From the NCBI GenBank assembly GCA_944354535.1, contig CALVPY010000051.1, forward strand, positions 28,056 through 92,055: 64,000 nt of DNA, in the 5' to 3' direction. This document shows positions 42,337 to 63,803 of the stretch, one piece after another. The notes beneath the pieces were generated by a model that worked only from the letters and a program-made list of their open reading frames with translations, searched no databases and was not told the origin of the DNA. Origin of the DNA: an uncultured Clostridia bacterium (GTDB lineage Bacteria > Bacillota > Clostridia > Christensenellales > Borkfalkiaceae). A program made the translations under genes and the position numbers. How positions within the stretch are numbered: position 1 is the first letter of the stretch; each line of letters starts with the position of its first letter.

Positions 42337-42486
42337 TCACGAATTTAAGTCTTTATTCATTTCTTCAAGTTTTTTAATTTGCTCTTGTTGTTTCATTTCT
42401 TCTAACTCTTTTTTTTGGTGGGCAAGTTTTTGCTTGGACCTATATATCGCGTTCGCTAATGCAATAATTTTCTCCAATTCGTGTAT
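42337..42486 (-). pseudogene. Remnant: C-terminal coiled-coil tail of an unknown gene
   Basis: On the minus strand about 45 codons read as a charged coiled coil (KQKLAHQKKELEEMKQQEQ) before a stop codon. Upstream, from about 42488, the frame runs into the antisense of RHS repeats, so the gene is cut there. No function can be assigned. The A/T-rich stretch 42156-42336 beyond its stop has no gene and holds the phased repeats. Confidence 0.45.
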
Positions 42487-44842
42487 AAATACGGTCACGA
42501 CGTATACGGATAAATACGGTAAGGTAATCGCGACGCGGCAAAACAACGATCTGAATGAAAACGAATACGATGCTGCGGATAATTTGATCAAACACGTTGA
42601 CAGCGATAACAATATCGAGTATAATTATGAATACAACGAACAGGGCGATGTGACTAAGTATTACGAGGGAGATTCTGAAAGTAGCGCTCACGTGAGAGTT
42701 TATAATACATACGACTACTACAATCGTCCTCTGAAAAGCACATACAACGTCAACGGGAAGAATTATTCGTATGAGTGCGAGTATACCGAGTATCCCGATG
42801 AGATGTTGGATGGGTTCACGACGCCGCTTGGCGAAGTGACGTATACGCGGGATGCGTTGACCCGATTGACGCAGAAGACAGTCGCGGCAAAGAATAAGAC
42901 GTTTACCGAGACGTACGCATACCTTGCGAACCTTTCGAACAGCAATTACACGACGCAGCTGGTGCGGGAGCTTAACTTCAACAGCGGTGTTGGCGGTGTA
43001 AAGACGCTGTCGTATACCTATGATGCAAACGGCAACATCAAGACGGTCAAAGAGGGCAGCTCGGAAGTCGCATCGTATGAGTATGACGGTCTGAACCGCC
43101 TGACGCGAGAGAATATTGCGGGCGAAAAGACGGTCGTCTATACGTATGATGCCGGCGGGAACCTGAAGACCAAGAAAGAGTACGCCTATACGAAGTCTGC
43201 AACGCTTGGGACGGTCAAGGATACGTTCAACTACACCTACGCAAGCGGGACGTGGGGAGATCGTCTGACGAAGTATGACGTAGGCAGCATTCAGTACAAC
43301 GAAGCGGGATATCCGACGATGTACCGCGGGCATGTGCTTTCCTGGGAGAAGGGGAATCTGCAATACTTCGACAATACCGATTTCATTTACAATGACAGCG
43401 GGATCCGTATTGCGAAGGGCTCGACGGACTATTTCGTCAAGGGGAATCAGATCCTTGCCGAGAAGCGCGGCAGCACGGTCATCCATTACTATTACGATGA
43501 GAACGGCGTAGCGGGCTTTGAATATGCGGGTCAGCAGTACTACTACCGCAAGAACCTGCAGGGCGATATCATCGGCATCTATGATTCGTGCGGGAATCTG
43601 CTCGGCGAATACAAGTACGACGCATGGGGTAACATCCTCTCGCAGGGCGGCTCGAATATTCTGACGATCAACCCGTTCCGTTATCGCGGGTACTACTACG
43701 ACGAAGAGACGGGCCTCTACTATCTGAACAGCCGTTATTACGACCCCGAAACGGGCAGATTCATTTCGCCGGATGATGTGGGCGTGCTGGATGAAACGTT
43801 TACGCAGCTGAACGGTCTCAACCTGTATGCGTACTGCTATAATAACCCCGTGATGATGACGGACCCGGACGGCGCGTTTGCGCTGACGTGGTGGCAAAAG
43901 CTGCTCATTGGTCTTGCGTTCATCACGCTGGGCGCGATCGCAACAGCGCTTTCGGGCGGTTCATTTGCGGCGGCATTCGTATGCGGACTGTCAGTCGCGA
44001 TGAAGAGTGCGGTGACGGGCGCGATCGTGGGCGCCGTCATGGGCGGACTGACATCGGCATTCAGCGGCGGGAATGTGCTGGAAGGCACAGCAAGCGGGCT
44101 GATGAACGGCTTGTTTGACGGGTTCATGTGGGGCGGCATCACGGCAGGCGTTTCCAACGTGATCAAGCCGGGCAGTTTCTGCTTTATTGCGGGCACGAAG
44201 GTGCTGACCGACAGCGGGCAGAAGAACATCGAAGACATCGAAGTCGGCGATCAGGTGCTTGCCTATGACGAAGAGACGGGTGTAACGGCGTATAAGCCCG
44301 TATTGCACCTGTTCCGGAACAAAAGCAGAGAACTTGCGCATGTCACGATTGACAACTGTGAAATTATTTGTACTCCAGGACATAAATTCTATACGCAAAA
44401 CTGTGGATGGAAGAATGCCAAGGATCTGAAAAAGTCGGATATTCTTCTGCTTTCTGACGACGTGCATGCGCATATCGTTAATGTATATGTAAAACGGCTG
44501 GAAGAAGAAGTTACGGTATATAACTTTGAGGTTGCTGACTTCCATACCTATTATGTTGCAGACTGTAATGTTTTGGCTCATAACAGGAATTGTAACTATT
44601 ATAAAGCGACCCGACAAAACGAAAAACTTGTTCGCGGTAGGCGTATTACCCAAAAGCAAGCATTAGATCAGATTCGCAATGGAAATGACATAATATCAAG
44701 TTCTCGGTCGGGGGCTAAATCTTTGGCAAAAAAAGCATTTGGCAACTCAAGGGTATATAGCGAGATTCATCCATATATTGATAATGCAATGCCTCATTTC
44801 CATGACGCACGACATCATATTTATCATATATTCTTTGACTAA
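42485..44842 (+). CDS. 5'-truncated RHS-repeat polymorphic toxin with Hint domain and C-terminal toxin tip
   Basis: RHS/YD repeats start abruptly at about codon 42488 (TYTDKYGKVIA) with no start codon, promoter or signal. The repeats (YEYDGLNRLTRENI, YTYDAGGNLKT) lead to the RHS core end FRYRGYYYDEETGLYYLNSRYYDPETGRF, broken here by its usual variable residues. A hydrophobic Gly/Ala region (residues ~475-560) follows, then a pretoxin Hint domain: CFIAGTKVLTDSG, ICTPGHKFYT, VADFHTYYVADCNVLAHN. The last ~85 residues are the toxin tip, rich in His near its end (MPHFHDARHHIYHIFF); I do not recognise its family. Complete proteins of this type exceed 2,000 residues, so this one is a fragment or a silent core-tip cassette. 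It could be read from the upstream TTG 42434 by fusion. Confidence 0.8.
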   Translation: MNTVTTYTDKYGKVIATRQNNDLNENEYDAADNLIKHVDSDNNIEYNYEYNEQGDVTKYYEGDSESSAHVRVYNTYDYYNRPLKSTYNVNGKNYSYECEYTEYPDEMLDGFTTPLGEVTYTRDALTRLTQKTVAAKNKTFTETYAYLANLSNSNYTTQLVRELNFNSGVGGVKTLSYTYDANGNIKTVKEGSSEVASYEYDGLNRLTRENIAGEKTVVYTYDAGGNLKTKKEYAYTKSATLGTVKDTFNYTYASGTWGDRLTKYDVGSIQYNEAGYPTMYRGHVLSWEKGNLQYFDNTDFIYNDSGIRIAKGSTDYFVKGNQILAEKRGSTVIHYYYDENGVAGFEYAGQQYYYRKNLQGDIIGIYDSCGNLLGEYKYDAWGNILSQGGSNILTINPFRYRGYYYDEETGLYYLNSRYYDPETGRFISPDDVGVLDETFTQLNGLNLYAYCYNNPVMMTDPDGAFALTWWQKLLIGLAFITLGAIATALSGGSFAAAFVCGLSVAMKSAVTGAIVGAVMGGLTSAFSGGNVLEGTASGLMNGLFDGFMWGGITAGVSNVIKPGSFCFIAGTKVLTDSGQKNIEDIEVGDQVLAYDEETGVTAYKPVLHLFRNKSRELAHVTIDNCEIICTPGHKFYTQNCGWKNAKDLKKSDILLLSDDVHAHIVNVYVKRLEEEVTVYNFEVADFHTYYVADCNVLAHNRNCNYYKATRQNEKLVRGRRITQKQALDQIRNGNDIISSSRSGAKSLAKKAFGNSRVYSEIHPYIDNAMPHFHDARHHIYHIFFD

Positions 44843-45263: not shown

Positions 45264-45290
45264 CACAGATAGTAATTTTAACTATCTGTG
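45264..45290 (+). terminator. Hairpin at the junction of the two toxin cassettes
   Basis: CACAGATAGT / ACTATCTGTG, a perfect 10-bp stem with a 7-nt A/T loop, then TTCTCGTTC. It could end the immunity gene; it also overlaps the start of the orphan cassette at 45288. Confidence 0.5.
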
Positions 45291-45944
45291 TTCTCGTTCA
45301 ACACGACGAAAGAGACGAAAGAGTGGTGCACGGTCAGCATCAGAGGCGCGGAAGGCGAACTCTACGAGATCACTTCGACGCCGGGGCATAAGTACTTTGT
45401 GCCTAGCAACAGGGTGCGGAAGGACAGCCGTGCGCCGGAGCACGCAAGCTATGCGGGCCTGAGCGAAAAGTGGGTCTCCGCCTGCGACTTAAAGCATGGC
45501 GATAAAGTCCTTCTTTCCGACGGCATGCTTTGCGAAGTGGAAGGCGTAACGCTGAAGCAGCTCGAAACGCCCGAAACGACTTACAACCTCGAAGTTGCCG
45601 ATTTCCATACCTACTACGTCTCCGATGCCTGTGTGTTGGTACATAATAATAAGTGTCATGAGTTGGGCAAACAGGGCGAGGAATATATTGCAAGGACGCG
45701 TGGACTTTCTAAGAATACCAATTTTTATAAAAAAACAGGTATCCCAGATTTCTTTGATAATACCAACCATATTTTAATCGAATCAAAGAATGTAGCACGG
45801 CAGAGCTTTACAGGTCAGCTACAGCGATATTTGACCTATGCTCAAAGCCATGGAATGCAAATGGAACTGTATGTGCGGCAGGGAACGAAACTAAGCAAGA
45901 ACCTGCTTGCATCGGGAATAAAAATTATGAGGTTTTCTTGGTAG
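45288..45944 (+). CDS. Orphan RHS tip cassette: partial Hint domain plus Tox-REase-like nuclease
   Basis: The frame opens inside a Hint domain (EGELYEITSTPGHKYFVPS, NLEVADFHTYYVSDACVLVHNN). The catalytic N-terminal Hint block is absent. Residues ~125-218 are a toxin tip with TGIPDFFDNTNHILIESKNV, where D and E-x-K fit a PD-(D/E)xK nuclease, then QLQRYLTYAQ and YVRQGTKLSKNLL. This pattern matches Tox-REase-7-like tips. The GTG at 45288 lacks a ribosome-binding site. It is best seen as a silent cassette that can replace the tip of the upstream RHS gene by recombination in the shared Hint region. Confidence 0.8.
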   Translation: MFSFNTTKETKEWCTVSIRGAEGELYEITSTPGHKYFVPSNRVRKDSRAPEHASYAGLSEKWVSACDLKHGDKVLLSDGMLCEVEGVTLKQLETPETTYNLEVADFHTYYVSDACVLVHNNKCHELGKQGEEYIARTRGLSKNTNFYKKTGIPDFFDNTNHILIESKNVARQSFTGQLQRYLTYAQSHGMQMELYVRQGTKLSKNLLASGIKIMRFSW

Positions 45945-50280: not shown

Positions 50281-50734
50281 TTATTCTGACGGACTGTCGT
50301 TGAACTTCCGCGCTCTGCGTTGTTGGCTTCACCAAAAGGGGATCACGATGGGGAAGTTGGCAAAGATGCTGAAAATGCCGCGTCGTAAGCTCCGATGGAA
50401 ATTATACAAACGCAAAAAGTTCAGTAAAAAGGAAATCACATCGCTCGTTTATATTCTCGGAGCATGGTCTGCGATCAGGGTATTGTGGTTTCCATCGTTA
50501 CAAGAGAAAAGGAGGATCAGAGATGAATTGGAGGAAAGACAGATGAGTAATAAATTCGATCCCGAGAAGCCCTATGGGGGAGTGCTTTTAAGCGAGAGCA
50601 GAAGCCGCAGGATCGAAGATGAATACAGAGAAATGTACGATGGCTGGGAAGAAAGCGGGGCAATCGTAGAGCTTGCGCTCTATTCCGACGAGCTGCCGAG
50701 CAAGAAACTGCTTCGGAGGAAAGATAATGACTGA
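50234..50734 (+). CDS. Element protein with HTH-like N-terminus; possible internal start
   Basis: A 166-residue frame. The first ~90 residues hold an HTH-like segment (LHQKGITMGKLAKMLKMPRR, KFSKKEITSLVYILGAWSA). The rest is an acidic segment beginning MSNKFDPEKPYGGVLL. The latter has its own in-frame ATG (50543) with GGAGG eight bases upstream, so either one two-domain protein or an extra 63-residue product is made. It overlaps the start of the giant downstream gene by 8 bp, so translation is probably coupled to it. Confidence 0.65.
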   Translation: MAFKANTFLSEISCTDYSDGLSLNFRALRCWLHQKGITMGKLAKMLKMPRRKLRWKLYKRKKFSKKEITSLVYILGAWSAIRVLWFPSLQEKRRIRDELEERQMSNKFDPEKPYGGVLLSESRSRRIEDEYREMYDGWEESGAIVELALYSDELPSKKLLRRKDND

Positions 50735-53700
50735 AAACAGGCTTTCGGAAAGAAACGCGAAAATTGCGGAGATGCTTGAAGATGGCGAAAAGCTCAAAAA
50801 CTTCTACCGCTTTATTGCGCAAAATCCCTATATCCTTCTGCACGATGCCTGCCAGATCATCATAGAACGCCCGGACGCTGTCATCTGCAACACGATGGAC
50901 GACTGGAACGCCATGGGCAGGCGCGTCACAAAGGGCAGAAAGGGCATTCCTTACTTCGATAAAGACGGATTCAAGCAGTTCGTCTTTGACGTGCGGGATA
51001 CTCACGGCGACGACCGCTACCAGCGTGACATTCTCCCTTTGCGCGTCCTCTTGAAAGGGCTTGACGAACTGAACGGGACAAACATTTTCGATGACGGGCG
51101 CGGAGACTATCGCAAGATACATAGCGGCGTTTATCGCTTTCTCGAACACAGCGGGGAGTTGACGGGCGATGAGCAGCGCGACGCGCTTTTCACGGAAGGC
51201 ATCGCGTTCTGTCTCTACTGCAAGACGGGTTTTCCGAAAACGGCAAACATTCATCTTCAGGGACTTCCGTACTCGTACAGAGATAACGCGGCGTTCGTCA
51301 AGGAGATGTATATCCGTTCGGAGCTATTCACGCAGGAAGTCTCGGACGCTTACGAGGCGAGCCGGGCAAAGGTAGAAGTTATCGACGACACGGAAGAAGA
51401 GGTGATTACAGACGAACCGCGGATCTCGGGCGGTTCCGAACAGGAGCCGGACGAAAAGACCGAACAGGTTATATCCGTTAGTCCGTATTATCGCCGCTAT
51501 CTGGATGCACAGAAGAAAGACCCGCAGGCGATTGTGCTTATCCGCTTGGGCGATTTTTACGAGGTCATGGGCGACAATGCGCGAACAGCAGCGGAAGTGC
51601 TCGATTTGACACTTACAAGCCGTGACGTGGGTCTAACCGAACGTGTTCCGATGTGCGGCTTCCCTTATTACGTTTCTGAGATATATACGGAAAAGCTCGT
51701 GCAAAAGCACAGCGTTATCATTTTAGAGGACGGCAAGGAGCCGGTCTCTCTTGCACCCCAAAACAATGCGGCGGAAAGCGAACAGCAGCCGCCGCAGCCC
51801 GAGGACAGATCGGAAGACTTGGCACCCATCGACGAACAGTCGGAGGAAGCCGAGGAAGATGACTTTGACGAGGACACATCCGAACAGGATGAACCCGAAG
51901 AAGCGCATCAGCCTAACCCCAAGCAGGGCGAAAAGGGCATCAAAGACAGAAAGCGTAGGCAAGAGCCGCAGCTTTCCATGTTTGACCTGTTGGAGCCGCA
52001 GGAAAAGAACGAGAAGGAACAGCTCATCGAGCGTTCTTTGAAGTACGGCAGCGGCATGGAACACGGCAAGTTCCGTATCTATGACAAGTATCAAGATAAC
52101 CCGACCGTCAAGGAGTTTGTTGACTTTTTGAAACGCGAGTACGGCATCGGCGGTCATGGCGGTTGGGGCGGGGACGAGGAATGGCACGACAGCAAGGGCA
52201 TTCAGATGTCCGTCCTCGGCGAAAAGGGCGAGACGCTCGTTGAGGCGTTTTTGAAATGGCCGGAAGTCGCCGTGCGCATCGCCGAACTCATCGATGACGG
52301 CAGCTATTTTTCCGAACAGGAAAAGAAGGAGTATGCCGCATACAGCGGGCAGGCCGAGGGCGTCGATAAGAGGTTGGAAGGCGTCGTTTCCTATATCGTC
52401 GATGACGGCACCAAGAACACGAGCGAAGGCAGTTGGGTGGTCTATTTCGATGAGTTCGGCGAGGACGAGCAGTTCGTCAGAGACAATGCAGGAGAAATCG
52501 TTGGCTTACTCTCTAAGCGGGAGGAAGTCTCCGACGTCGAATTGCTGGAAAACGGCATTGACCTCACATTTTACCTCGACTATTGTTCGAACCTTGAAAT
52601 CGACGATCAGCTCGAAGAATGGGATGACGACGAGAAGGATGAGCAAAATACAGAACTTTCGTCCGTCCTCGACCAAGCAGACCTCGGCGGCGCAAAGACA
52701 AGGTTTCGGAACAATGTCGCGGCAATCAGACTTGTGAACAGGCTGTATGCGGAGAACGCAACCCCCACGGCAGAGGAAAAGAAAACGCTTGCTCGGTTTG
52801 TCGGCTGGGGCGGTCTGGCGCAGGCGTTCGATGAGAACAATGAAAGCTGGAAGAAGGAATATGATGAACTGAAAGACCTTCTTCCAAAAGAAGATTACGA
52901 CAACGCAAAATCAAGCACCTTAAACGCCTACTACACGCCCAAAGAGGTGATAGAGGGCATCTATATGGCTCTCGAACGTTTCGGTGTGAAGGGCAACAAC
53001 CGCATATTAGAGCCTGCGATGGGTACGGGTAACTTCTTCGGCTTTATGCCCAAAGGCATTGCTGATGGAAGTCGCCTGTACGGTGTGGAACTCGACAACC
53101 TCACGGGAAAGATAGCAACCAAACTCTACCCGCAGGCGAACATTCAGATCAAGGGATTTGAGGACACGACCTTCCCCAACGACAAGTTCGATATTGTCGT
53201 GGGCAATGTCCCCTTCGGCGGATACGGCGTCGCGGACAGCGATTACAACCGCTATAACTTCAAGGTTCATGACTATTTCCTCGCCAAGAGCGTGGATAAG
53301 ACGAGGCCGGGCGGCATCGTCGCCGTCATCACTTCAAAGGGCACGATGGATAAGCTCAACCCGTCGGCGCGCAGGTATGTCGCGGAGCGGGCGGAACTTC
53401 TCGGCGCGATACGTTTACCCAACAACGCCTTCAAACAGACGGCGGGCACGGAGGCCGTCGCGGATATCCTCTTTTTTCGCAAGCGTGAGGAAAGGATAGC
53501 CGACCTCTCCCACGAGCAATGGATCGGCACGGGTAAGACGGAGGAGGGGTACGAGATTAACAATTACTTTCTCTCGCACCCGCAGATGATCCTCGGAACG
53601 CTCGCGGAGGAACACGGCTTATACGGCGGGATAGACACGACGGTCAAGCCGGACGGCAGGGCCTTACAGGACGCGCTCGCCGAGGCGATAAAGAATTTGC

Positions 53701-56700
53701 CCGAAAGCGTCTATCTCGCGCCACAGACGCCGCCCGCAGAGGAGCGGGAGTCAGAGGTCGATTACAATGTCAAACCCTTCTGTTATAAAGCGGAGGGCGG
53801 CAGGCTGTATATGCGCATCGGCGATGAGATGGCCGAACAGGCTATCCCTAAAAGCCCCAAAGACGCATATCAGAGAATATGTGGCATGATTGCTCTCCGA
53901 GATGAGCTGCACCATATCCTCGATATTCAGATACAAGGCTGTTCGGACGATGTGCTGGAACGTGAGCAATGGAATCTCAACAGCAGGTATGACTTGTTCG
54001 TCAAGAAGTACGGAAATCTCAACAACCAGACGAACAGCAGGCTCTTCAAGGATGACGGCGACAGCGCACTTTTATTTGCGGCGGAGAACGTCAATGAGGA
54101 GACAAAAGCCGTCACAAAGGCGGATGTGTTCTTCAAGCGCACCATACGCCCGTATGTCGTGCCGACCTCGACGGACGACCCGTTCGAGGCGCTGCAAATA
54201 AGCCAAAACGAGCGCGGAAAAGTCGATATTGCCTACATGGAAGAGCTGACGGGCAAGGACTATGATACCGTACTCTCCGAACTCGGAGCCTCCGTGTTCC
54301 GCGATCCCGAAAAGGTTGTGGAAGGCGATCGATATTCCGGCTTTGTCACGAACGAAGAATACCTTTCCGGGCAGGTCGTAAACAAATTGGAGCGCGCGAA
54401 AGAGGCCGCCGAGAGCCATCCTGAATATCAAAAGAACGTGGATGCACTTCTCATGGTGCAGCCCGACAAGCTGACGGCGAGCGACATCTCCGTTCGGCTC
54501 GGCGCGACATGGGTGGATAAAGGGTACTATAAGCAATTCTACTGCGAGCTGTTAGGCGTGCCGTGGTATCTGAGAGACAGCGTGGAACTCACGTATAACC
54601 CGCACGACTCTTCGTGGCGCTTGGATCAGAGGGACAACGTTCGCCATACAACGGATATGCGGCAGAAGGAGGTGTACGGCACCAAACGCGCTCCCGCTTA
54701 CAGGCTGTTTGTGGATGCACTCAACTTAAAATCGACCACCATTACGGACTTGGTGGAAGAGGACGGCAAAGAAAAGCGCGTCGTAAACCAAGCCGAAACG
54801 ATTGCTGCGAGGGAAAAGCAGAACAAAATAAAGGAAGCGTTCGCCGATTGGATTTTCAAAGACCCTGAACGCAGGGCGGACTTAGAAGAAACCTACAACA
54901 GGCTGTTCAATCAGACGCGGCTGCCAAGCTACGACGGGAGTTATCTCAAATTCCCCGAAATGAACCCGGCGATCGAGCTGAAGCCGCACCAAAAGAATGC
55001 CGTGCATCGCATCATCACGAGCGATAAAAGTACGCTGCTTCATCACGTCGTCGGCGCGGGCAAAACATTCACGGTCGTTGCGTCGATCATGAAGATGCGG
55101 CAATTAGGACTTTGCAAGAAGGCAATGGTCACTTGCCCCAACCACCTTGTTCAGCAATGGGCCGGGGAATGGAGAAAGCTCTACCCCAACGCGCATATCC
55201 TCGTCGCCACAAAGGAGGACTTGGAGAAGGACAACCGAAAGAAGTTTGTGTCAAAAGTTGCCCTCGGCGATTGGGACGGTATCATCATCGCGCAGTCATC
55301 CTTTGCTAAAATTCCCATTTCACAGGAGCGGCAGGTAAAAAAGCTCAAAGAAGAGATAGCGGCTGTAGAGGCTACCATTCAAAAGCAATGGGAAGAAAAC
55401 GGGATGCCGCGCGGCGCTGTCAAGAACCTTGAAACCATCAAAAAGGGCAAGGAAAAGCAGTTAAAGAAGCTGATGGACGCAAGCGGCAAGGACGACGTGT
55501 TGAAGTTTGAGGACTTGGGCGTCGATTACCTTTTTGTGGACGAGGCGCACTCATACAAAAACCTGTTCCTCTTTACGAAAATGAACAACGTCGCGGGGAT
55601 CTCGACCGCCGCGAGCCAAAGGGCGAGCGACTTGAAATTAAAGTGTGAGTATTTGCAGGAGATTCGCGGCAGCGACAGGGGCGTGGTGTTTGCGACGGGT
55701 ACGCCCATCTCCAACTCCATGACGGAGATGTACACGATGCAGACCTATTTGCAGCCGTCCGTTTTGAAAGAGCTTGGCATGACCTTCTTCGACGGTTGGG
55801 CGGCAGACTTCGGCGAGACGATCACGAGTATGGAGCTGTCTCCCTCCGGTCAGGGGTACAGGGCGAGGACGCGCTTTGCAAAATTCACGAACTTGCCCGA
55901 ACTATTAAAACTGTACCGCTCCTTTGCCGATGTGCAGACATCGGACATGGTCAAGCTCGACGTGCCCGAAGCGGAGCGGCAGGTCATCAGCCTTAAACCA
56001 TCGGACACGACCATCGAGCTTGCAGAGGAGATTGCAGAGCGGGCGGACAGGATCCACGACGGGCACGTTGACCCGCACGAGGACAATATGCTCAAAATCA
56101 CCTCGGACGGAAAAAAGCTCGCACTTGACCCGCGCTGTTTTGTGCCCGAGTCGCAGGACGAGGAGGGGAGCAAACTCAACGAGTGCGCACAGCGTATCTT
56201 CGAGGTGTGGACGGATACGAGGGATAGAAAGGGAACGCAGATCGTCTTTTGCGATTTATCCACGCCGAAGGTGAGATTTGAGGACTACGAGTACGGCAAG
56301 GACTTCGACGCCTATAACGACTTGAAGTATAAGCTCGTGCGCATGGGCATCCCCCAAGAGGAGATCGCCTATATCCACGAGGCGAACACAGAAGATCAAA
56401 AGCAGGCGCTCTTTGATAAAGTCAATTCGGGCGCGGTGCGCGTTCTTTTCGGCAGCACGGAAAAGTGTGGCGCGGGAACGAATGTGCAGAAGCGGCTCGT
56501 CGCCTTGCACCACCTCGATACGCCCTACCGTCCCAGCGATATGGAGCAGAGAGAGGGGCGCATCATCCGTCAGGGCAACACCAATGAGATGGTCAAGATT
56601 TTCACCTATGTCACGGAGCGCACGTTCGACAGCTATTCCTATCAGATACTCGAAAACAAGCAGCGCTTTATCGCGCAGATAAACCGCGGCGATCTGACTG

Positions 56701-59700
56701 TGCGCGAGGCGGAGGACATCGATGAAACGACACTTTCATATGCAGAAATTAAGGCTATCACGGCGGCAAATCCCAAGATAAAGCGCAAGATGGAGGTGGA
56801 TGCAGAGGTCGCAAGGCTGCGCGTCCTCGAAGGACAGTACAGGAAGAACCTGTACGCATTGCAGGACAAGATTTATAAGACTTATCCCGAGGATATCCGA
56901 AAGCAGGAACTTCGCATTGCGCATATCGAAAGAGACCTCGAAACGCTCAAAACGAGCCGTCCCGCAGACCCCGAAGCGTTTGAAATCAGCGTAAACGGAA
57001 AAGTTTACAAAGACCGGAAAGAGGGCGGGAAAGCCCTTACGGACGCACTGTATTCGGGCAAGGACGGCGTTCCCGTCGCGGAATATTGCGGATTCAAGAT
57101 CGCCATGAAACCCATGACGATGCTGATGACGGGGCGGGAAATCATCCTCACCGCCGAGGGGCAGTACGAATACGGCATCGGCGACAGCCCGAGCGGAAAC
57201 CTGACGCGCATCGAGAACTTCTTCGATGACTTGCCGGGGAGAGCGGATCTTCTCAAAAAGGGGTTAGAGCAGTTACACGCCGACCTCGAAATCGCCAAAG
57301 AGCAGGTAGAAAAACCGTTTGAACAGGCGGAGAGGCTCAAAGCACTTCTCTCCGAACAGGCGCAGCTGAACGCCGAACTCAACCTCGACAAGCGCGATGA
57401 AGTCATCGTTGCGGACGAGGAAGAAGGGGAGGAACAGTATAAAGCGGTGCCCGAAACGATCAATCAAAATTGGGAGGTGAACATGATAGACGAAGATGAT
57501 AAAGTTGCGGCAATGATGGTGGACTTGCTCCCTGACTATGCTGTCACAAATGAGGATATGCACGCTTACGGCTATCGGTGGGACGGGATGCTGCCCGTTA
57601 CGGGGAATGTTGCAAAGACGCTTGGCATAGTCGGCGTGCCAGTTTACGAGCTGCGTCACAACGATACCGAGGCAATGGCAGACGATGCTTCTATCTTTGA
57701 TGAAAAGGACAGGATATTCGGCGTGGAAAAACCCGATTGGCTGAACTTTTTGCAGACGGAGATGGGGCGTGATTACATCGCCGCACGAAAGGAAGTGACG
57801 GGGGCTGTGCTCATCGCGCTCGATGGTGAGGACATGAGCTACTTTTCAAACACCGAGCGCGAATGGTTATGGGAGCAGTACGGCACGGAAGTGTATGCGC
57901 TTGAAAAGGCGCTCGAAGGACGGGGCGAGCCGTCCGCCGCGAGGATGAAGGAGTATGCTTTGCCCATCTTTGAAGAGCAGGTGGAAAAGCTCAAAGCCGA
58001 GCTGCCATTCGACGAACACGGCTGGAGTGAGGAGGATATTCATGCGTCTGTATTTAATAACGTGAAGGACGCGGAACTCAAAGATGTTTTGCAAAAGCAC
58101 AGTTATGAGGTGCGGCTCAATGACTTTCTGGATAAGGAACTTTCAGAGTTTAAGTACCTGAACGGCAGAACGACGGGCTTTACGCAGGATGAGATATTCG
58201 ATATTTCCAACGATCTGAAACCGTCTTTCGAGGATAGCGAGTTTGCGGCAAATATGTCGGGTGAAGAGTTCGATGATTGGTATGACGTTTTCCGAGAGGA
58301 AGAGCTGATCCCTTTGTTAAATCAAAGGGCGCTTCCCGGCGAGGAATATTTATCGGAGTATGAGGATAATCCACTCGACCTCCCCGCGATGGACGACGGG
58401 CTTACAGTCCTTGCCGTGCAGACGGACATTGCGCTGGGTAAGGAGAGTTCGCTTAACGGTGTGTCTCTTCTGAAAAATGAGGAAGTCAATAGGTGGTACG
58501 TCACGACTAAGACGCGCGACGGCGCAGGGAATAACTTGACCGTCGGAGATACGATGAATATGGAAACGCTTGGAATCAGCGCGGGAGAAACTGATCCGAA
58601 CGTCATCAGGACGTTTTACTCGGAACAGGATGCGCAGGCGTTTTTCAATGAAAAGGTGCAGGTACTTGGTTCCGTGCAGGAAAATTACGAGCGCAAGACA
58701 CCCGATTATGAGGAAGAGGTCATAAATAGCGTCAACACGGAATTTGAGACCTATAAGGCGGATATGCTTTCTAAAAGCCCCGAAGAGATTTTCCAAGAGA
58801 ATTATAAAATCCATGTAATGACCGAACTTAAAGAAGTGATCGAAGAAGGCGTTCTGAATGACTACATTGATAAGGAGTATTATAAGGCGCTGTATCAGGA
58901 CAGAGGCAGTATTCTTACATCGCTCTACGATGACTATCTCCATAACGAGTATGCAAGCGTCGATAGTTACAGCGATACGGCAGACTTTATTCGCGACTAT
59001 TGCGAGCGTTATCATAAGACAGCATTGTATGCGGATGCGTCGTTGTATCTGAAAACGGCAGAATATGCACGGGAGCATGGGGAGCTGGAAGAATTTCGGC
59101 GTTCCCGCAAGCTCAACGAGGCGTGCCGGGAGGAGATAGACGATGCCATCTCGAAGAACTTTGACGGGATGCACTTAAAAGAAGGCTTTGAGAAGGACGT
59201 CATCGAAAAATACGGCCGCACACGTGTCAGCTATATCCTCGCCACGACCATTCGCGAACACGCGTGGGACGGGCGTTACAGCCCGAAAAACAGGGCATGG
59301 GCGGAGAGTATTCCTATCTCCGAAAGTGAGAGCGAACGGGCAAACAGTTGCCTTCATTCGCACCCTGCGATCATCGACGGCATGGCGAGCATGATGAGGG
59401 AATACGAACAAAGACATCAGAAAACAAGTGCTGCTTCTTTGGAAAACACAGAGCAGCAGAAGGAGGAAAATTTGGCTGAGAACAGGTATCTGAAACAGAC
59501 GGCCCGCGGCGATAAGGTCATGAGCATCGCCGAGGACAGGAGCGGAAGAAATATTGCCGTCGTGCAGAGGAAGAACGACTATACCGTCGCCATCGGCTAC
59601 GATACGTCGGACGGCACATGGGCACAGGGTGTGTATGACTTCAAGGACGAAAAGGCGGCGAACGACTATCGCGAGCGGCATTACGGGAAGAACAGCGAGC

Positions 59701-61574
59701 CGCCCGAAAAGTGGTACGAGGTATTTGTATCCAAGGATGCGCTCATTAAGACGTACAACAAATCTTCGCTCATGCGGATGCCGTCGAGCAACAAAGAATA
59801 TGCGGGCTACACCTACTATGTGTTCAATAACCGCATGAAGGAGAGCCGCCAGCTCGTGGACAGGGAGAGCGATTCGCCGGAGCTTTGCTATAAGCTTCTG
59901 CTCACGGAGGGCGAAGTCGTGCATCTTCGCAACCGAGACGGCGACGAGGTCGAACTGACGGCGGAGGAATTTTCTGAAACTGTCAACCATACGTCGGACA
60001 AGGACTATGCGCGGGAGAACAAGCCGCGCCTTGCAATCAACATTCCGCGCGACGCGCTCATCAAATCGTACGAAAGTTCCTCGCTGTATCGGGCACCCAA
60101 CACGGGGGAATATGAGGGATATGCCTACTATCTCCCGAATTCCGTCGTTGGCGAAAACGTGCAGGCGGAGGACGGGAGCTATACGGCACAGCTTCCAGAA
60201 GATTTTACGGTCATGCTCCGCAAGGGCGAGGATGAAGTCGAACTTTCCGCGCGGGAATTTCAGGAGCTTGTAGCAAATACGTCGTCCGAGGACTATAAGC
60301 GTCCGCCTTCGGCAATGGACGAGTACCGAGAGCAATATGCAGAGGAAAAGGTGTGGAGCGATATCCCCGTCTCCGAGAAGGCAGTCATCGCGAACTATGA
60401 AAGGAGCGTGCTTCTGCGAATGCCCAAGGGCAATTACGAGGGAATGGTCTATTACATCCCCGCCGGCATGGTGCGAAAGGACGAGGACGGCATTCGCCTG
60501 CGCCTGCCCGAAGATTTTGAGGTGCACTTAAAAAACGGCACGGACGAGAAGCTCGACCTTTCGGTGAAGCAGCTCATGGAGGAGCTCGCAGATAAGACGG
60601 ACGAGTACTACGAGAGCATCTACCGCCGTCCCAGCGAGGAAGCGAGAAAGGCGTTTGAAAAGGTGGAAAATGACCTTCGCGCACATCTTCCCGAGGAGAT
60701 GAAAGAGAAGTCGAATTGGGTGGTGGTGCGCACGAAGGAGAACAAGGACACGGGCAGGCTGGAGAAGTTCCTCATCGACGTACATACGGGCAAGTTTGCC
60801 GAGAGCGATAATCCCGAGACGTGGACAGACTTTGATACTGCCTGCGAGTACGCGAAGGAGCACGGCGGCGTGGCGCTCGCCTATGCGCTGGACGGCAAAG
60901 ACAACATCGCCTGCATCGACCTCGACCACTGTATCGGTGAGGACGGCGAACGTTCGCCGCTCGCAGAGGAGGTGCTGTCCAAGCGCGGAGAGACGTATAT
61001 CGAACGCTCTTTAAGCGGCAAGGGCATCCATGTGTTTGGCAAAACGAAAGGGAGCGACCTTCGTTCCTTCTCCAAGGAAGGGGATATGGAATACTATCAG
61101 GGAGGCCGCTTTATCGCTATGACGGGTGACGGTGCGGAGAATTCTTGTCTTGAAAGTCTGGATACGCCCGAGATGAAGGAAGTGCTCGAACGAAAGTTGG
61201 AAAGGCGAACGGAATGGAAGAACATCGGAAAGGGTGAGGCAGGGCTGACGCAGATGGAGGATCACGAGCTTCTCGAAAAGGCATTCTCGGCGAGAAACGG
61301 CGATACGGTCAGGAGACTGTATAACGGCGAAGATCTCAGGCACAACCATTCCAACTCGGATATGTCGCTCATGAACTATCTCGCCTTTTACAGCGGTGGA
61401 AACGTTGAGCAGATGACGCGCATTTTCGCTACGAGCGGGCTGTACCGCCCCGAGAAACACGCGAGCTACTACGAGCACACTGCCATCAAGGCGGCGAAGG
61501 ACACGCCGCACTACACGCCGCCCAAGGCTCCCGCATCCGCTCCCAAATCTTCGGGCGGTAACAGCAAGGCATAA
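50727..61574 (+). CDS. Giant polyvalent protein: MutS-I-like, N6-methyltransferase, SNF2 helicase, YodL/DUF3848/DUF3849 and primase-polymerase modules
   Basis: 3,615 residues from ATG 50727, with CGGAGGA seven bases upstream. Modules in order: an N-terminal helical domain; MutS-I-like domain (~252-340: AIVLIRLGDFYEVMGDNA, VPMCGFPYY); acidic linker; methyltransferase (~733-880) with motif I LEPAMGTGNFFG and motif IV NVPF; SNF2 helicase (~1414-2000) with GAGKT, DEAH, and EQREGRIIRQGN; YodL-like (~2245-2290); DUF3848- and DUF3849-like (~2670-2860; IREHAWDGRYSPKNRAW). Three related repeats (~2912-3290; ALIKTYNKSSLMRMP, ALIKSYESSSLYRAP, AVIANYERSVLLRMP) and a primase-polymerase-like domain (~3305-3460: CIDLDHCIGEDG, ERSLSGKGIHVF, EYYQGGRFIAMTG) complete it. 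Polyvalent proteins of conjugative elements combine anti-restriction and replication-start functions; the exact activity of this fusion is inferred. Confidence 0.88.
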   Translation: MTENRLSERNAKIAEMLEDGEKLKNFYRFIAQNPYILLHDACQIIIERPDAVICNTMDDWNAMGRRVTKGRKGIPYFDKDGFKQFVFDVRDTHGDDRYQRDILPLRVLLKGLDELNGTNIFDDGRGDYRKIHSGVYRFLEHSGELTGDEQRDALFTEGIAFCLYCKTGFPKTANIHLQGLPYSYRDNAAFVKEMYIRSELFTQEVSDAYEASRAKVEVIDDTEEEVITDEPRISGGSEQEPDEKTEQVISVSPYYRRYLDAQKKDPQAIVLIRLGDFYEVMGDNARTAAEVLDLTLTSRDVGLTERVPMCGFPYYVSEIYTEKLVQKHSVIILEDGKEPVSLAPQNNAAESEQQPPQPEDRSEDLAPIDEQSEEAEEDDFDEDTSEQDEPEEAHQPNPKQGEKGIKDRKRRQEPQLSMFDLLEPQEKNEKEQLIERSLKYGSGMEHGKFRIYDKYQDNPTVKEFVDFLKREYGIGGHGGWGGDEEWHDSKGIQMSVLGEKGETLVEAFLKWPEVAVRIAELIDDGSYFSEQEKKEYAAYSGQAEGVDKRLEGVVSYIVDDGTKNTSEGSWVVYFDEFGEDEQFVRDNAGEIVGLLSKREEVSDVELLENGIDLTFYLDYCSNLEIDDQLEEWDDDEKDEQNTELSSVLDQADLGGAKTRFRNNVAAIRLVNRLYAENATPTAEEKKTLARFVGWGGLAQAFDENNESWKKEYDELKDLLPKEDYDNAKSSTLNAYYTPKEVIEGIYMALERFGVKGNNRILEPAMGTGNFFGFMPKGIADGSRLYGVELDNLTGKIATKLYPQANIQIKGFEDTTFPNDKFDIVVGNVPFGGYGVADSDYNRYNFKVHDYFLAKSVDKTRPGGIVAVITSKGTMDKLNPSARRYVAERAELLGAIRLPNNAFKQTAGTEAVADILFFRKREERIADLSHEQWIGTGKTEEGYEINNYFLSHPQMILGTLAEEHGLYGGIDTTVKPDGRALQDALAEAIKNLPESVYLAPQTPPAEERESEVDYNVKPFCYKAEGGRLYMRIGDEMAEQAIPKSPKDAYQRICGMIALRDELHHILDIQIQGCSDDVLEREQWNLNSRYDLFVKKYGNLNNQTNSRLFKDDGDSALLFAAENVNEETKAVTKADVFFKRTIRPYVVPTSTDDPFEALQISQNERGKVDIAYMEELTGKDYDTVLSELGASVFRDPEKVVEGDRYSGFVTNEEYLSGQVVNKLERAKEAAESHPEYQKNVDALLMVQPDKLTASDISVRLGATWVDKGYYKQFYCELLGVPWYLRDSVELTYNPHDSSWRLDQRDNVRHTTDMRQKEVYGTKRAPAYRLFVDALNLKSTTITDLVEEDGKEKRVVNQAETIAAREKQNKIKEAFADWIFKDPERRADLEETYNRLFNQTRLPSYDGSYLKFPEMNPAIELKPHQKNAVHRIITSDKSTLLHHVVGAGKTFTVVASIMKMRQLGLCKKAMVTCPNHLVQQWAGEWRKLYPNAHILVATKEDLEKDNRKKFVSKVALGDWDGIIIAQSSFAKIPISQERQVKKLKEEIAAVEATIQKQWEENGMPRGAVKNLETIKKGKEKQLKKLMDASGKDDVLKFEDLGVDYLFVDEAHSYKNLFLFTKMNNVAGISTAASQRASDLKLKCEYLQEIRGSDRGVVFATGTPISNSMTEMYTMQTYLQPSVLKELGMTFFDGWAADFGETITSMELSPSGQGYRARTRFAKFTNLPELLKLYRSFADVQTSDMVKLDVPEAERQVISLKPSDTTIELAEEIAERADRIHDGHVDPHEDNMLKITSDGKKLALDPRCFVPESQDEEGSKLNECAQRIFEVWTDTRDRKGTQIVFCDLSTPKVRFEDYEYGKDFDAYNDLKYKLVRMGIPQEEIAYIHEANTEDQKQALFDKVNSGAVRVLFGSTEKCGAGTNVQKRLVALHHLDTPYRPSDMEQREGRIIRQGNTNEMVKIFTYVTERTFDSYSYQILENKQRFIAQINRGDLTVREAEDIDETTLSYAEIKAITAANPKIKRKMEVDAEVARLRVLEGQYRKNLYALQDKIYKTYPEDIRKQELRIAHIERDLETLKTSRPADPEAFEISVNGKVYKDRKEGGKALTDALYSGKDGVPVAEYCGFKIAMKPMTMLMTGREIILTAEGQYEYGIGDSPSGNLTRIENFFDDLPGRADLLKKGLEQLHADLEIAKEQVEKPFEQAERLKALLSEQAQLNAELNLDKRDEVIVADEEEGEEQYKAVPETINQNWEVNMIDEDDKVAAMMVDLLPDYAVTNEDMHAYGYRWDGMLPVTGNVAKTLGIVGVPVYELRHNDTEAMADDASIFDEKDRIFGVEKPDWLNFLQTEMGRDYIAARKEVTGAVLIALDGEDMSYFSNTEREWLWEQYGTEVYALEKALEGRGEPSAARMKEYALPIFEEQVEKLKAELPFDEHGWSEEDIHASVFNNVKDAELKDVLQKHSYEVRLNDFLDKELSEFKYLNGRTTGFTQDEIFDISNDLKPSFEDSEFAANMSGEEFDDWYDVFREEELIPLLNQRALPGEEYLSEYEDNPLDLPAMDDGLTVLAVQTDIALGKESSLNGVSLLKNEEVNRWYVTTKTRDGAGNNLTVGDTMNMETLGISAGETDPNVIRTFYSEQDAQAFFNEKVQVLGSVQENYERKTPDYEEEVINSVNTEFETYKADMLSKSPEEIFQENYKIHVMTELKEVIEEGVLNDYIDKEYYKALYQDRGSILTSLYDDYLHNEYASVDSYSDTADFIRDYCERYHKTALYADASLYLKTAEYAREHGELEEFRRSRKLNEACREEIDDAISKNFDGMHLKEGFEKDVIEKYGRTRVSYILATTIREHAWDGRYSPKNRAWAESIPISESESERANSCLHSHPAIIDGMASMMREYEQRHQKTSAASLENTEQQKEENLAENRYLKQTARGDKVMSIAEDRSGRNIAVVQRKNDYTVAIGYDTSDGTWAQGVYDFKDEKAANDYRERHYGKNSEPPEKWYEVFVSKDALIKTYNKSSLMRMPSSNKEYAGYTYYVFNNRMKESRQLVDRESDSPELCYKLLLTEGEVVHLRNRDGDEVELTAEEFSETVNHTSDKDYARENKPRLAINIPRDALIKSYESSSLYRAPNTGEYEGYAYYLPNSVVGENVQAEDGSYTAQLPEDFTVMLRKGEDEVELSAREFQELVANTSSEDYKRPPSAMDEYREQYAEEKVWSDIPVSEKAVIANYERSVLLRMPKGNYEGMVYYIPAGMVRKDEDGIRLRLPEDFEVHLKNGTDEKLDLSVKQLMEELADKTDEYYESIYRRPSEEARKAFEKVENDLRAHLPEEMKEKSNWVVVRTKENKDTGRLEKFLIDVHTGKFAESDNPETWTDFDTACEYAKEHGGVALAYALDGKDNIACIDLDHCIGEDGERSPLAEEVLSKRGETYIERSLSGKGIHVFGKTKGSDLRSFSKEGDMEYYQGGRFIAMTGDGAENSCLESLDTPEMKEVLERKLERRTEWKNIGKGEAGLTQMEDHELLEKAFSARNGDTVRRLYNGEDLRHNHSNSDMSLMNYLAFYSGGNVEQMTRIFATSGLYRPEKHASYYEHTAIKAAKDTPHYTPPKAPASAPKSSGGNSKA

Positions 61575-61612: not shown

Positions 61613-61744
61613 ATGAGTAACAATGAAAAACCCGAGATCGTCATTCCGAAAGGATATACGATCGATGAAATGCTCGACTTGGAAGGCGATCTGTGGGACG
61701 AAGACCCCATCGGACAAGAGGAGGTGAGGATCCGCTTTGAGTGA
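61613..61744 (+). CDS. Small hypothetical protein (43 residues)
   Basis: A short acidic protein (MSNNEKPEIVIPKGYTIDEM ... GDLWDEDPIGQEE) with an excellent GGAAGGAGG site ending six bases before the ATG. Its end contains the ribosome-binding site of the ardC-like gene and overlaps that gene's TTG start. No function is assigned; it may serve as a translational coupler or be a small anti-defence or accessory protein. Confidence 0.65.
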   Translation: MSNNEKPEIVIPKGYTIDEMLDLEGDLWDEDPIGQEEVRIRFE

Positions 61745-63425
61745 GGAAAATACGGCGTACGAAAAGCTGACGCCGCAGAGGAAACTACTTTACGATGCCG
61801 TCATGCGTAACCTTGAAAACGGCACGGGTATCTGGGAGCAGGGCTGGGAGGGTGGTGGAGGTGCGCCGGTATCGGCCATCAGCGGAAAGAGTTATAAGGG
61901 CGTCAACCGATTGTCCCTGATGGTCGCCGCCATGGAGCGGGGATATTCCGATCACCGCTGGATGACGTACAAGCAGATGACGGATAAGGGCTGGAGCTTC
62001 AAGCGAAACGAAGTGGGAAAGAGCCTCGGCAAGAACGCGGGGGTGACGATCGAGTATTTCGAGCTTCGGGATAAGGAGACCAAGCAGCCCTTTAATAGAC
62101 ACATTTTAGACGGCATGACGGCAGATGAGCGCAACGAGTATATGGAGGAGAACGTCTATCCCCTGCGCAAATATTACCGCGTGTTCAACGGCGACATCAT
62201 TGAGGGCATCCCTGCGCTCGAGAAGAAAAAGACGGACGAGAGCGGTTACAACCAGAGGGCGCAGCGGCTTATCGATTTTTGGAGCGACACGGAAAGCCCC
62301 ATCCGTTACGGCGGGAGCCTTGCGTTTTATTCCCCCAAGACGGACGAAATTCATCTGCCTAAGCGGGAATATTTTACCGATATGCCGTCCTTCTATTCGA
62401 CGGCATTGCACGAGATCGGGCACAGCACGGGCGCAAAAAATCGACTCAACCGTGAGATGGCGACGGACTTCTCGTCGGAGCAGTATGCCGAGGAAGAACT
62501 TCGGGCAGAGTTTGCGTCCATGTTCCTTGAGCAAGATTTGGGCGTTGGAGTGACAGACAAGCATCTCCAAAACAACAGCGCTTACATCGGCTCGTGGAAA
62601 AGCAGGTTGAAGGAAGACCCGAACGTTCTTTTCAAGGCAATCGCCGATGCAGAGCGTATCACGGCGTTCATCATGGCAAAGGAGAAGCTCATCCAAAAGG
62701 AGACGGAACCTTTTGCCGTTGTGGAGGATACGGATGAGTACGGTGACCCCGTTTACAGGGTGATGATGTGCGTGGAGAACGGCGGGACACAGTACGCTTT
62801 GGCGGGCTTCGGTTTTCACAGCAGAGAGGCGTTGATGGCGGAGTTCGGCAAAATGCAGGAGCTGCCATTTTGGAAAGACAAGGAATTCGAGGAAGTCAGC
62901 CGTGAAGAGCTTGAGGCGCGGAGCATCGAGCGCAATAAAGCGCAAACGCAAAAGGCAGAACGGCTTGCAAAAGTGGAGGAAGAAAAGTCGGAAGTGTTTC
63001 TCCCGCCCAGCCAGGTTGCAAAAGCACAGCCGAGAGAAATGGCAGCGGGAAAGCCCGTCGATATGGCGGGAAGGGGCATCGACAGCCTCACACATATGGA
63101 AGACAGAGAGCTTGTCGAACAGGCGATGAAGACGAGGAAAGGTGCAAAGTTCTCCGCTCTTTTCAACGGCATTTCCCTTCTCGGGAGCGAGGAGAAGGAT
63201 GAGCGTGCGCTCATGGCGCGGATCGCAGTCTTCACGAATGACAAGCAAAAAATGATGCGCGTGTTCCGCGCTTCGGGACAGTACCGCGACGAAAAGCCCA
63301 ACGCCTATTACAGCAAAATGGCGGACGAGGAACTTGCTTTTGTGAAGGCACTTCGTCAAAGATCGGAGCTTAAACCGCAAGCAAACACGAAGCGCAGACG
63401 CGCGGGAATCAATGCAAAAAGCTAA
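61737..63425 (+). CDS. ArdC-like antirestriction protein with zincin domain and primase-associated C-terminal module
   Basis: 562 residues from TTG 61737, about ten bases after AGGAGGTGA. Residues ~1-130 form an ArdC N-terminal ssDNA-binding domain (YKGVNRLSLMVAAMERGYSD, WMTYKQM). Residues ~200-300 form the metallopeptidase with FYSTALHEIGHSTGAKNRLN, in which HEIGH plus a downstream Glu (AEEELRAEFASM) gives the zinc site. ArdC-type proteins protect incoming single-stranded DNA from restriction. The last ~100 residues (MEDRELVEQAMKTRKGAKFS, VFRASGQYRDEKPNAYY) match the C-terminal module of the preceding giant protein. The two proteins therefore share a part and probably act together. Confidence 0.88.
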   Translation: MSEENTAYEKLTPQRKLLYDAVMRNLENGTGIWEQGWEGGGGAPVSAISGKSYKGVNRLSLMVAAMERGYSDHRWMTYKQMTDKGWSFKRNEVGKSLGKNAGVTIEYFELRDKETKQPFNRHILDGMTADERNEYMEENVYPLRKYYRVFNGDIIEGIPALEKKKTDESGYNQRAQRLIDFWSDTESPIRYGGSLAFYSPKTDEIHLPKREYFTDMPSFYSTALHEIGHSTGAKNRLNREMATDFSSEQYAEEELRAEFASMFLEQDLGVGVTDKHLQNNSAYIGSWKSRLKEDPNVLFKAIADAERITAFIMAKEKLIQKETEPFAVVEDTDEYGDPVYRVMMCVENGGTQYALAGFGFHSREALMAEFGKMQELPFWKDKEFEEVSREELEARSIERNKAQTQKAERLAKVEEEKSEVFLPPSQVAKAQPREMAAGKPVDMAGRGIDSLTHMEDRELVEQAMKTRKGAKFSALFNGISLLGSEEKDERALMARIAVFTNDKQKMMRVFRASGQYRDEKPNAYYSKMADEELAFVKALRQRSELKPQANTKRRRAGINAKS

Positions 63426-63446: not shown

Positions 63447-63803
63447 ATGAAAGCAGTCAGGATCAACGAGGAATACTATTCGGTCATCAAGGAGATGACG
63501 GAGCGTCAGGCGGGGGAGTTCGTCAAGAAACTGTGTGCACGCATCTACGAGGGAAAGCCTATCATTACGAGAGACCCTTACCTCAAAGGCGTGTTCGTCT
63601 CGGTGGAAAAGGACATTGCCATCTCCAAACAGAACAGCCTTAACGCGCGGAAAGCTCTCGAAAAGAACGCGGAAAGGCAGAGGGAACAGCGGCTTGCAAA
63701 CCTCGGCTTTGCGCTCGGAAGTGCCCTTGCAGTGGCACACGCAGCCGCGGTGGAAGATGGGGCGGGGCTTGAGCAAAACAACCGCAAATCGGGTGTCAGT
63801 TGA
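63447..63803 (+). CDS. Small element protein, DUF6291/replisome-organizer-like N-terminus
   Basis: 118 residues with AAAGGAGGATAC nine bases before the ATG. YSVIKEMTERQAGEFVKKLC and the central KGVFVSVEKDIAISKQN resemble the N-terminal module of small phage or element proteins of the DUF6291 / replisome-organizer type. The C-terminal part is charged, then Ala-rich (ALAVAHAAAVEDG). The role is unknown; it closes the run of element genes before the non-coding end. Confidence 0.65.
   Translation: MKAVRINEEYYSVIKEMTERQAGEFVKKLCARIYEGKPIITRDPYLKGVFVSVEKDIAISKQNSLNARKALEKNAERQREQRLANLGFALGSALAVAHAAAVEDGAGLEQNNRKSGVS

Follow-up and report, generated by a model that had tools for sequence, protein, structure and literature searches.

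The closest described systems are the polyvalent proteins of conjugative elements, in which several unrelated domains are joined. The text of Iyer et al. (2017; PMC5512222) lists both MutS-I and Primpol among polyvalent-protein domains in Firmicutes, reports an ArdC-N header in 93% of conjugative polyvalent proteins, and describes Tn1549-like polyvalent proteins as giant chains with an LPD36-methylase-SNF2 unit. The same text describes DarB as a protein of the phage head and reports an antirestriction role for it. ArdC of R388 joins ArdC-N to a zincin metallopeptidase (PMC7213743). Two further systems share single modules with the locus studied here: the NrS-1 primase-polymerase and MutS. The conversion of transferred single-stranded DNA into protected double-stranded DNA in Gram-positive recipients is, to our knowledge, poorly known.

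The stretch of DNA analysed here (the window; 64,000 nucleotides) is the end of contig C51 (positions 28056-92055 of 92055) in a 1.93-Mb draft genome of an uncultured Clostridia bacterium. From about 42 kb on in the window, GC falls and skew rises, as a mobile region would show; the left part of this low-GC region holds a gene for an RHS-repeat protein with a pretoxin HINT domain (42434-44842), followed by one for a protein with HINT plus Tox-REase-7 (45288-45944). The initial annotation had placed a polyvalent protein of 3,615 residues at 50727-61574, and this frame proved real and intact: its stop ends at 61574, and the ATG at 50727 is preceded by GGAGG; a TTG start at 50673 is in frame as well. 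Pfam, PHROGs and PDB sequence searches backed every module that had been named. Two AlphaFold models (mean pLDDT 78.6 and 80.7; 18 and 21 aligned sequences) matched MutS at MutS-I and the NrS-1 primase-polymerase at the C-terminus. The features of the gene and of its two downstream neighbours are as follows (aa, residue numbers).

50727..61574, + strand: polyvalent protein gene, 3,615 aa, ATG start with a GGAGG ribosome site
50727..51371, + strand: ArdC-N-like N-terminal domain, aa 1-215, named from an indirect HMM link; possible ssDNA-binding header
51480..51746, + strand: MutS domain I, aa 252-340 (Pfam, MutS sequence match, Foldseek)
51555..51563, + strand: F-Y-E (F-x-E mismatch-reading motif), aa 277-279, aligned with GDFYE of E. 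coli MutS
51969..51983, + strand: QLSMF, beta-clamp-binding-like peptide, aa 415-419, within a disordered linker
51999..52361, + strand: X430 domain (unnamed; phrog_38613), aa 425-545, present in both clades
52689..52901, + strand: LPD36, domain aa 655-725, GWGG at aa 693-696 (motif GXGU as defined in the text of PMC5512222)
52914..53726, + strand: predicted gamma-class adenine methylase, aa 730-1000, with LEPAMGTGNF (aa 761-770) and NVPF (aa 827-830)
53205-53216, + strand: methylase motif IV, NVPF, aa 827-830 (translation)
54924..56933, + strand: SNF2-type SF2 helicase/translocase, aa 1400-2069, with GAGKT (aa 1443-1447) and DEAH (aa 1605-1608)
58716..59405, + strand: DUF3848 and DUF3849, aa 2664-2893 (Pfam)
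59559..60656, + strand: beta-rich region, aa 2945-3310, resembling about three tandem repeats
60678..61166, + strand: predicted primase-polymerase palm, aa 3318-3480, with D3398/D3400 and H3435
61269..61526, + strand: NrS-1-type helix bundle domain (HBD), aa 3515-3600 (Pfam, profile comparison)
61737..63425, + strand: partner gene, 562 aa, with ArdC-N, zincin metallopeptidase and C-terminal HBD (about 63102-63356) (Pfam, profile-profile)
63447..63803, + strand: next gene, DUF6291 protein (1.5e-4, below cutoff); DUF6291 follows ArdC in L104 too

A scan for the methylase-helicase core gave 63 loci, and the core tree split clade A (23 loci from 22 assemblies) from clade B. MutS-I and the primase lay in one ORF of 3,403-4,117 residues in 18 of the 23 clade-A loci, in agreement with the initial annotation, which had joined these modules in one chain; a chance fusion was ruled out by this recurrence. 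Two of the exceptions were cut by contig ends (L041, L049), L044 had no MutS-I, L050 had no N-terminal part, and L045 carried an in-frame TAA ahead of the primase, with the N-terminal domain on another frame. The primase was not a separate protein: it shared the ORF in 21 of the 22 clade-A loci with a primase match, L045 being the exception. An assembly chimera or a decaying fusion, to which L045 with its TAA and separate N-terminal ORF would correspond, is refuted by these relatives from 22 assemblies, and we give it practically no weight. Identity was 43-56% in the remaining 40 loci, of which many are fragments, except for two short helicase fragments (L094, 77%; L087, 92%). Within the sequence available for these 40 loci, neither MutS-I nor primase was seen; complete clade-B chains end shortly after the helicase. 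In the family, aa 1-1100 had a relative at E 1e-30 in 20 of 201 genomes (own included).

As judged by sequence, the chain fits a polyvalent protein of conjugative elements. Its predicted LPD36, gamma-class methylase and SNF2 helicase follow one another in the order of the DarB-like dyad and form the same unit as in the Tn1549-like giant chains. Eco57I methylase matched aa 810-891 in Pfam (E 1.4e-5; 25.7 bits, cutoff 25.3), M.TaqI was matched at E 0.0029 in the PDB sequence search, and SNF2-rel (aa 1421-1612, E 7.5e-11) and Helicase_C (E 1e-5) were matched in the helicase; the DarB-like antirestriction PHROG covered aa 653-2257 (E 0). These matches, together with the kept motifs, bore out the methylase and SNF2 helicase modules named initially. 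GWG of LPD36 was kept in all clade-A (23/23) and clade-B (27/27) rows. In the same 23 and 27 rows, N, P and F of motif IV as well as L-E and G-x-G-x-F of the SAM motif were unchanged, and the Walker A lysine and D-E of motif II were invariant; H of DEAH was replaced by Q or D in 3/23 A rows and by D in 5/27 B rows. A conserved stretch (aa 1000-1400) lies between methylase and helicase.

The initial annotation had read NVPF as a sign of possibly altered methylase activity. We dropped this reading, since V occupied the second position of motif IV in 48 of the 50 rows (clade A, 23/23; clade B, 25/27; A and I once each), and phage P1 DarB, with its methylase-helicase core, has GNVPFGG at the same place. 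NVPF is a family rule and the normal methylase motif of the DarB family. Four further phage proteins with this core, taken from the 30 matches listed, all had NPPF. The text of PMC5512222 prints the DarB-type motif IV as NPP(Y/F), which the chain lacks, having NVPF instead; this form is too narrow to exclude membership because the archetype, P1 DarB, fails it too. P1 DarB matched only the methylase and helicase models here, at E 1e-4.

A core of this kind could be all that matters. According to this main rival, the protein is a plain DarB-type antirestriction factor, and MutS-I and primase are passengers from gene fusion. The extent of the PHROG match agrees with it, as does the distribution of the core, which is the most widely shared part of the chain and occurs in clade B without MutS-I or primase; two clade-A loci also lack MutS-I. 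Against it, the modules keep their catalytic and F-x-E residues (see below), and the primase fusion apparently happened twice. Moreover, the HBD was as little changed as the helicase: dN/dS for the two was 0.035 and 0.045 (window-L038) and 0.037 and 0.074 (window-L033), and was 0.09-0.15 for the primase and 0.12-0.14 for MutS-I, with dS near or past saturation. Overall, dN/dS ranged from 0.035 to 0.285 where a value was obtained (22 of 24 module comparisons), and these values are only rough because dS was mostly above 1. We regard the passenger reading as possible but rather unlikely.

About 1,250 residues separate the helicase from the primase; the initial annotation does not mention them, nor the ArdC-N-like N-terminus or the downstream partner gene. 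In this stretch, DUF3849 was matched at E 2.2e-38 and DUF3848 at E 3e-6, under its Pfam cutoff, and a fold search with the repeat region (aa 2945-3310) returned no solved relative at E 0.001.

The C-terminus had been called primase-polymerase-like, and PDB sequence, fold and catalytic-residue matches all agreed with this. Five primase PDB chains (7ola and NrS-1 entries such as 6a9w) matched aa 3318-3576 (4.6e-23 to 2.4e-17), the modelled C-terminus matched the NrS-1 primase-polymerase fold (E 1e-15), and the NrS1 HBD model of Pfam matched aa 3541-3592 (E 2.3e-10). By sequence and model, the chain carries the D-x-D, S-x-S-G-x-G-x-H and HBD of an NrS-1-like primase-polymerase. Palm and HBD are common to the chain, NrS-1 (6a9w, 7rr3) and 7ola by sequence, and to the chain and NrS-1 by predicted fold; 7ola is a SaPI primase. 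The NrS-1 enzyme has a C-terminal helicase, whereas here the primase ends the 3,615-residue chain with no helicase there. The first metal D was kept in 22 of 23 sequences (L037 has N), and the second D and the H in 23/23. Of the NrS-1 HBD residues R249, K251 and Y261, only R249 was matched by a like residue, R3574, which was present in all 22 giant-chain HBDs and in 17 of 20 partner HBDs; the alignment stops at NrS-1 residue 251, with K251 facing E3576, and K251 and Y261 have no mappable counterpart. In NrS-1, R249 is required for priming while extension is comparable without it, and N300 HBD mutants lose priming and keep extension, as reported in the text of PMC8718748.

A primase of this type might serve the plasmid-like replication of the element itself, in the donor or after excision, rather than second-strand synthesis on entry. 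In the class, 28 of 391 genomes (own included) had a primase match at E 1e-10 in a scan that scored at most three candidates per genome, and most matches were to solo primases or primase-helicases, their frames about 200-890 aa long, as own replication would predict. Entry is suggested instead by the fusion to an antirestriction core and by the pairing with ArdC. No replication initiator was found above the Pfam cutoff in the chain, the one candidate being a weak Rep3_N match (E 0.03) in the repeat and primase region. We consider this use of the primase quite improbable and prefer a role on entry.

Among the matches listed, frames of more than 2,000 aa with a primase were only that of the window and one in G341, a genome of another family. 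In G341 the primase-HBD part forms the N-terminus of a 3,748-aa chain of clade-B type, the opposite end from clade A, where it is C-terminal. Parsimony on the core tree gave two state changes for the primase fusion. A single clade of all fused primases was rejected (p-AU 0.025) by an AU test that was picked after the tree had been seen and that involves a long branch to G341; branches in the primase tree are long, and its bootstrap had yet to converge. The primase-polymerase appears to have been fused twice, at opposite ends in two lineages, which fits the argument already made in the text of PMC5512222 for several separate primase entries into polyvalent proteins. A solo primase of the same kind, 309 aa, was found in G570.

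At the other end of the chain, the MutS-I-like module of the initial annotation was confirmed by a Pfam MutS_I match (aa 253-334, E 4.9e-17), the MutS fold and the kept F-x-E. E. coli MutS matched the chain in the PDB sequence search (2e-12) and in a separate comparison (6.2e-15), and MutS was the best Foldseek match of the modelled domain (E 1.3e-6, 40% identity over 82 columns, 1.6 A). Unlike MutS, the chain has none of the other MutS domains, as searched with Pfam. In MutS, F36 and E38 read the mismatch; PDB titles among the fold matches name E38 mutants bound to G.T. Both F and E were kept in 20/20 N-terminal MutS-I copies, window included, and in 29/29 MutS matches fetched from a class-wide search. 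This search used the N-terminal profile and for the most part recovered cellular MutS (at least 372 of 391 genomes), so it does not serve as a count of MutS-I chains.

Three relatives (L048, L049, L051) have a second MutS-I-like stretch 3' of the helicase. In these second copies F was lost in all three, and E was kept in L049 and L051 and replaced by D in L048; since the L049 and L051 copies are near-identical (80 of 82 residues), the contrast with the first copies amounts to about two independent cases. Loss of F in the second copies and its retention in the first suggest that the first copy is maintained for reading DNA. The N-terminal MutS-I looks functional, a true mismatch domain by sequence and model. 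It is not essential to the chain, because it is missing in L044 and L050.

The domain ahead of MutS-I (aa 1-215) was modelled with pLDDT of about 90. Direct comparisons did not identify it as a plain ArdC-N domain: aa 1-220 had no Pfam match, and profile-profile comparison with the ArdC-N of the partner reached hhalign probabilities of 0.1 and 0.3 out of 100. The link left is transitive, in that the N-terminal clade HMM matched the protein at L053:4515-6539 at aa 29-92 (E 3e-8), and this protein has Pfam ArdcN at aa 18-137 (9.7e-9). The ArdC-N label is therefore a weak one.

MutS-I is followed by a linker (aa ~345-425) that is largely disordered, with pLDDT under 50 at aa 414-426, and then by X430, modelled with pLDDT of about 88. 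The linker is just 53-55% identical to those of L038 and L033, and its sole nearly invariant positions in 18 aligned sequences are Q415, F419 and R408. B. subtilis MutS carries QLSFF. The text of PMC13254535 prints a five-residue clamp consensus, Q-phi-x-[L/M]-[F/L], and QLSMF at aa 415 is the only match to it in the chain; of the printed consensus, the scoring covered this five-residue form. A first pattern, drawn up after the motif of the window had been seen, gave 21 matches 5' of the methylase in 49 proteins vs 0.82 expected from shuffles. A widened pattern, set after inspection of the data, was found in the block before X430 in 19/21 clade-A and 12/22 clade-B proteins (31/43) vs 6/1,944 other blocks of the same proteins. 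The printed consensus gave 4/21 and 10/22 (14/43) vs 7/1,944, the printed consensus plus M at position 2 gave 8/21 and 12/22 (20/43) vs 7/1,944, and the older QL[S/D]LF form gave 1/21 and 3/22 (4/43) vs 0/1,944. Under each pattern the clamp-like peptide is enriched at the position before X430. This predicted peptide may link the chain to the replication clamp.

The most interesting other reading arises from these two elements together: MutS-I and the clamp-like peptide might block host mismatch repair by occupying mismatches and the clamp site of MutS, and thereby let heteroduplex or mismatched element DNA evade repair or keep recombination from being rejected. MutS-I with the look of a true mismatch domain stands beside a clamp-type peptide, cellular MutS too binds the clamp (in the text of PMC8744996), and MutS-I also precedes a DarB core in a phage chain, L174. 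Interference of this kind sits less well with the lack of any further MutS domain in the Pfam search, and with the presence of the clamp-like peptide in clade B, where no MutS-I was seen. We judge it unlikely and favour a role of the peptide and of MutS-I in the establishment of entering DNA.

In the partner protein, Pfam detected ArdcN (4.3e-22), MPTase-PolyVal (1.1e-35) and, below cutoff, the HBD (0.0014). Unlike in the Tn1549-like polyvalent proteins in the text of PMC5512222, the metallopeptidase is not in the giant chain but in this neighbour gene, and compared with R388 ArdC, whose ArdC-N and metallopeptidase it shares, the partner has an extra C-terminal primase-type HBD. An HBD profile made from giant chains alone found the partner HBD in 19/19 complete ArdC ORFs (E 1e-24 to 9e-10), and profile-profile comparison of the two HBDs gave 1.6e-31. 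ArdC lay downstream in 20 of the 22 loci with a primase (that of L045 is cut), and the other two loci end within 1 kb. With the same models, neither partner HBD nor ArdC-metallopeptidase was matched in clade-B loci.

The window contig stops before any transfer genes; a T4SS/relaxase neighbourhood was seen in L104 (genome G040) and, via contig C6, in the genome of the window. The order in G040 is giant chain, two small opposite-strand genes, ArdC, DUF6291, a stand-alone N6/N4 DNA methylase (L104:3492-4430), an unnamed 177-aa gene, MobL-type relaxase and coupling protein, with a TraG-type ATPase further on. Contig C6 breaks off within a gene for a coupling protein (69% identity); next to it are homologues of the G040 transfer region (4/7 matched ORFs at 70-79% identity, the others at 44-49%) and a TraG-type ATPase. 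Three recombinase ORFs lie at this end as well, and two of them have the full make-up of a resolvase-type serine recombinase. From the gene order we infer that C51 and C6 are linked. The L104 relaxase had no match in the draft genome of the window, which has a gap there, and the oriT of the element was not located.

We propose, with about even confidence, that the giant chain serves an integrative conjugative element as an establishment protein on the recipient side. The analysis shows the modules with their conserved active-site and reading residues, low dN/dS, the HBD on both proteins, the conserved clamp-like peptide and a conjugative setting; the activities and the order of steps are inferred, and the protein may be either made in the recipient or carried into it. 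The ArdC-N-like domain and the HBD would hold incoming single-stranded element DNA, beside the partner ArdC-metallopeptidase. The primase-polymerase would then lay a primer where the HBD recognises a start site, and the QLSMF-type peptide would engage the host beta clamp, allowing the replicase to extend the primer. The LPD36-methylase-SNF2 unit would travel along the forming duplex and methylate adenines ahead of host restriction, and MutS-I, its F-x-E intact, would halt or position the machine at hairpins, junctions, heteroduplex or other DNA that is mismatched, looped or kinked. Its probable role is to help DNA that has just been transferred to persist in the new cell and turn double-stranded. 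Each step could be tested through defined residues: D3398/D3400, Q415/F419, F277/E279 and N827.

The initial annotation had suggested that DNA protection, structure recognition and priming may be one machine. This is plausible from the domain make-up, and the shared HBD and the clamp-like motif add to it. One chain would unite priming, a probable link to the replication clamp, sensing of DNA structure and methylation. That the chain shares its HBD with the neighbouring ArdC suggests common DNA sites of action for priming and ArdC antirestriction. We advance only tentatively the further idea of a two-protein, clamp-coupled complex, in which the giant chain and the ArdC-metallopeptidase, sharing a primase-type start-site domain, would prime the entering DNA, bring in the host replicase by way of a MutS-style clamp peptide, check the duplex by means of a working mismatch domain and methylate it. 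If true, double-strand conversion and restriction protection would be one coupled act in elements of gut Clostridia.

Two further observations count against the proposed mechanism: the peptidase activity of R388 ArdC is not needed for transfer (text of PMC7213743), and the adjacent stand-alone methylase of L104 could be the real protector. The text of PMC5512222 proposes that proteins of this class pass through the channel. We did not assume such passage for a chain of about 400 kDa (our estimate), because R388 ArdC acts in recipients and does not require export (text of PMC7213743).

The initial annotation had implied that MutS-I and a primase in such proteins are new, which does not hold, as both were described in 2017 (text of PMC5512222). 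That text, its figures and FTP supplement aside, does not mention a single chain that combines MutS-I, methylase-helicase and Primpol; in its main text the word 'clamp' is absent, and PriCT occurs only with Primpol. Among the papers listed in searches of the open PMC literature, none reported an HBD on an ArdC partner or a clamp-like peptide in such proteins. The predicted HBD on the ArdC partner, the clamp-like peptide and the retention of F-x-E would be new beyond 2017.

According to the text of PMC5512222, MutS-I occurs outside MutS itself only in polyvalent proteins of Bacteroidetes and Firmicutes; by sequence matches, its range now seems wider than these phyla and includes viral contigs and a cyanobacterial plasmid. 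In IMG/VR, 5 loci out of 47 pattern matches had MutS-I, and a clade-A chain was in none of the five. Small viral-contig proteins carry MutS-I with F-x-E intact (L170:9902-10399, L171:9983-10303 and L172:9749-10402, in frames of 166, 107 and 218 aa). In two polyvalent chains from phage contigs (L173:7214-14350, which is cut, and L174:7172-19543, 4,124 aa), MutS-I with F-x-E precedes the DarB core. A 'strawberry notch' protein of a cyanobacterial plasmid (L180:2040-8810) has MutS-I with F-x-E near its C-terminus, and a 331-aa frame on a faecal phage scaffold (L181:11467-12459) joins a PcfK-like part to MutS-I. Finally, an ArdC-metallopeptidase in G570 (L165:6615-9419) carries LPD25 and matches to the repeat region of the clade-A giant chain; parts therefore seem to move between the two proteins.
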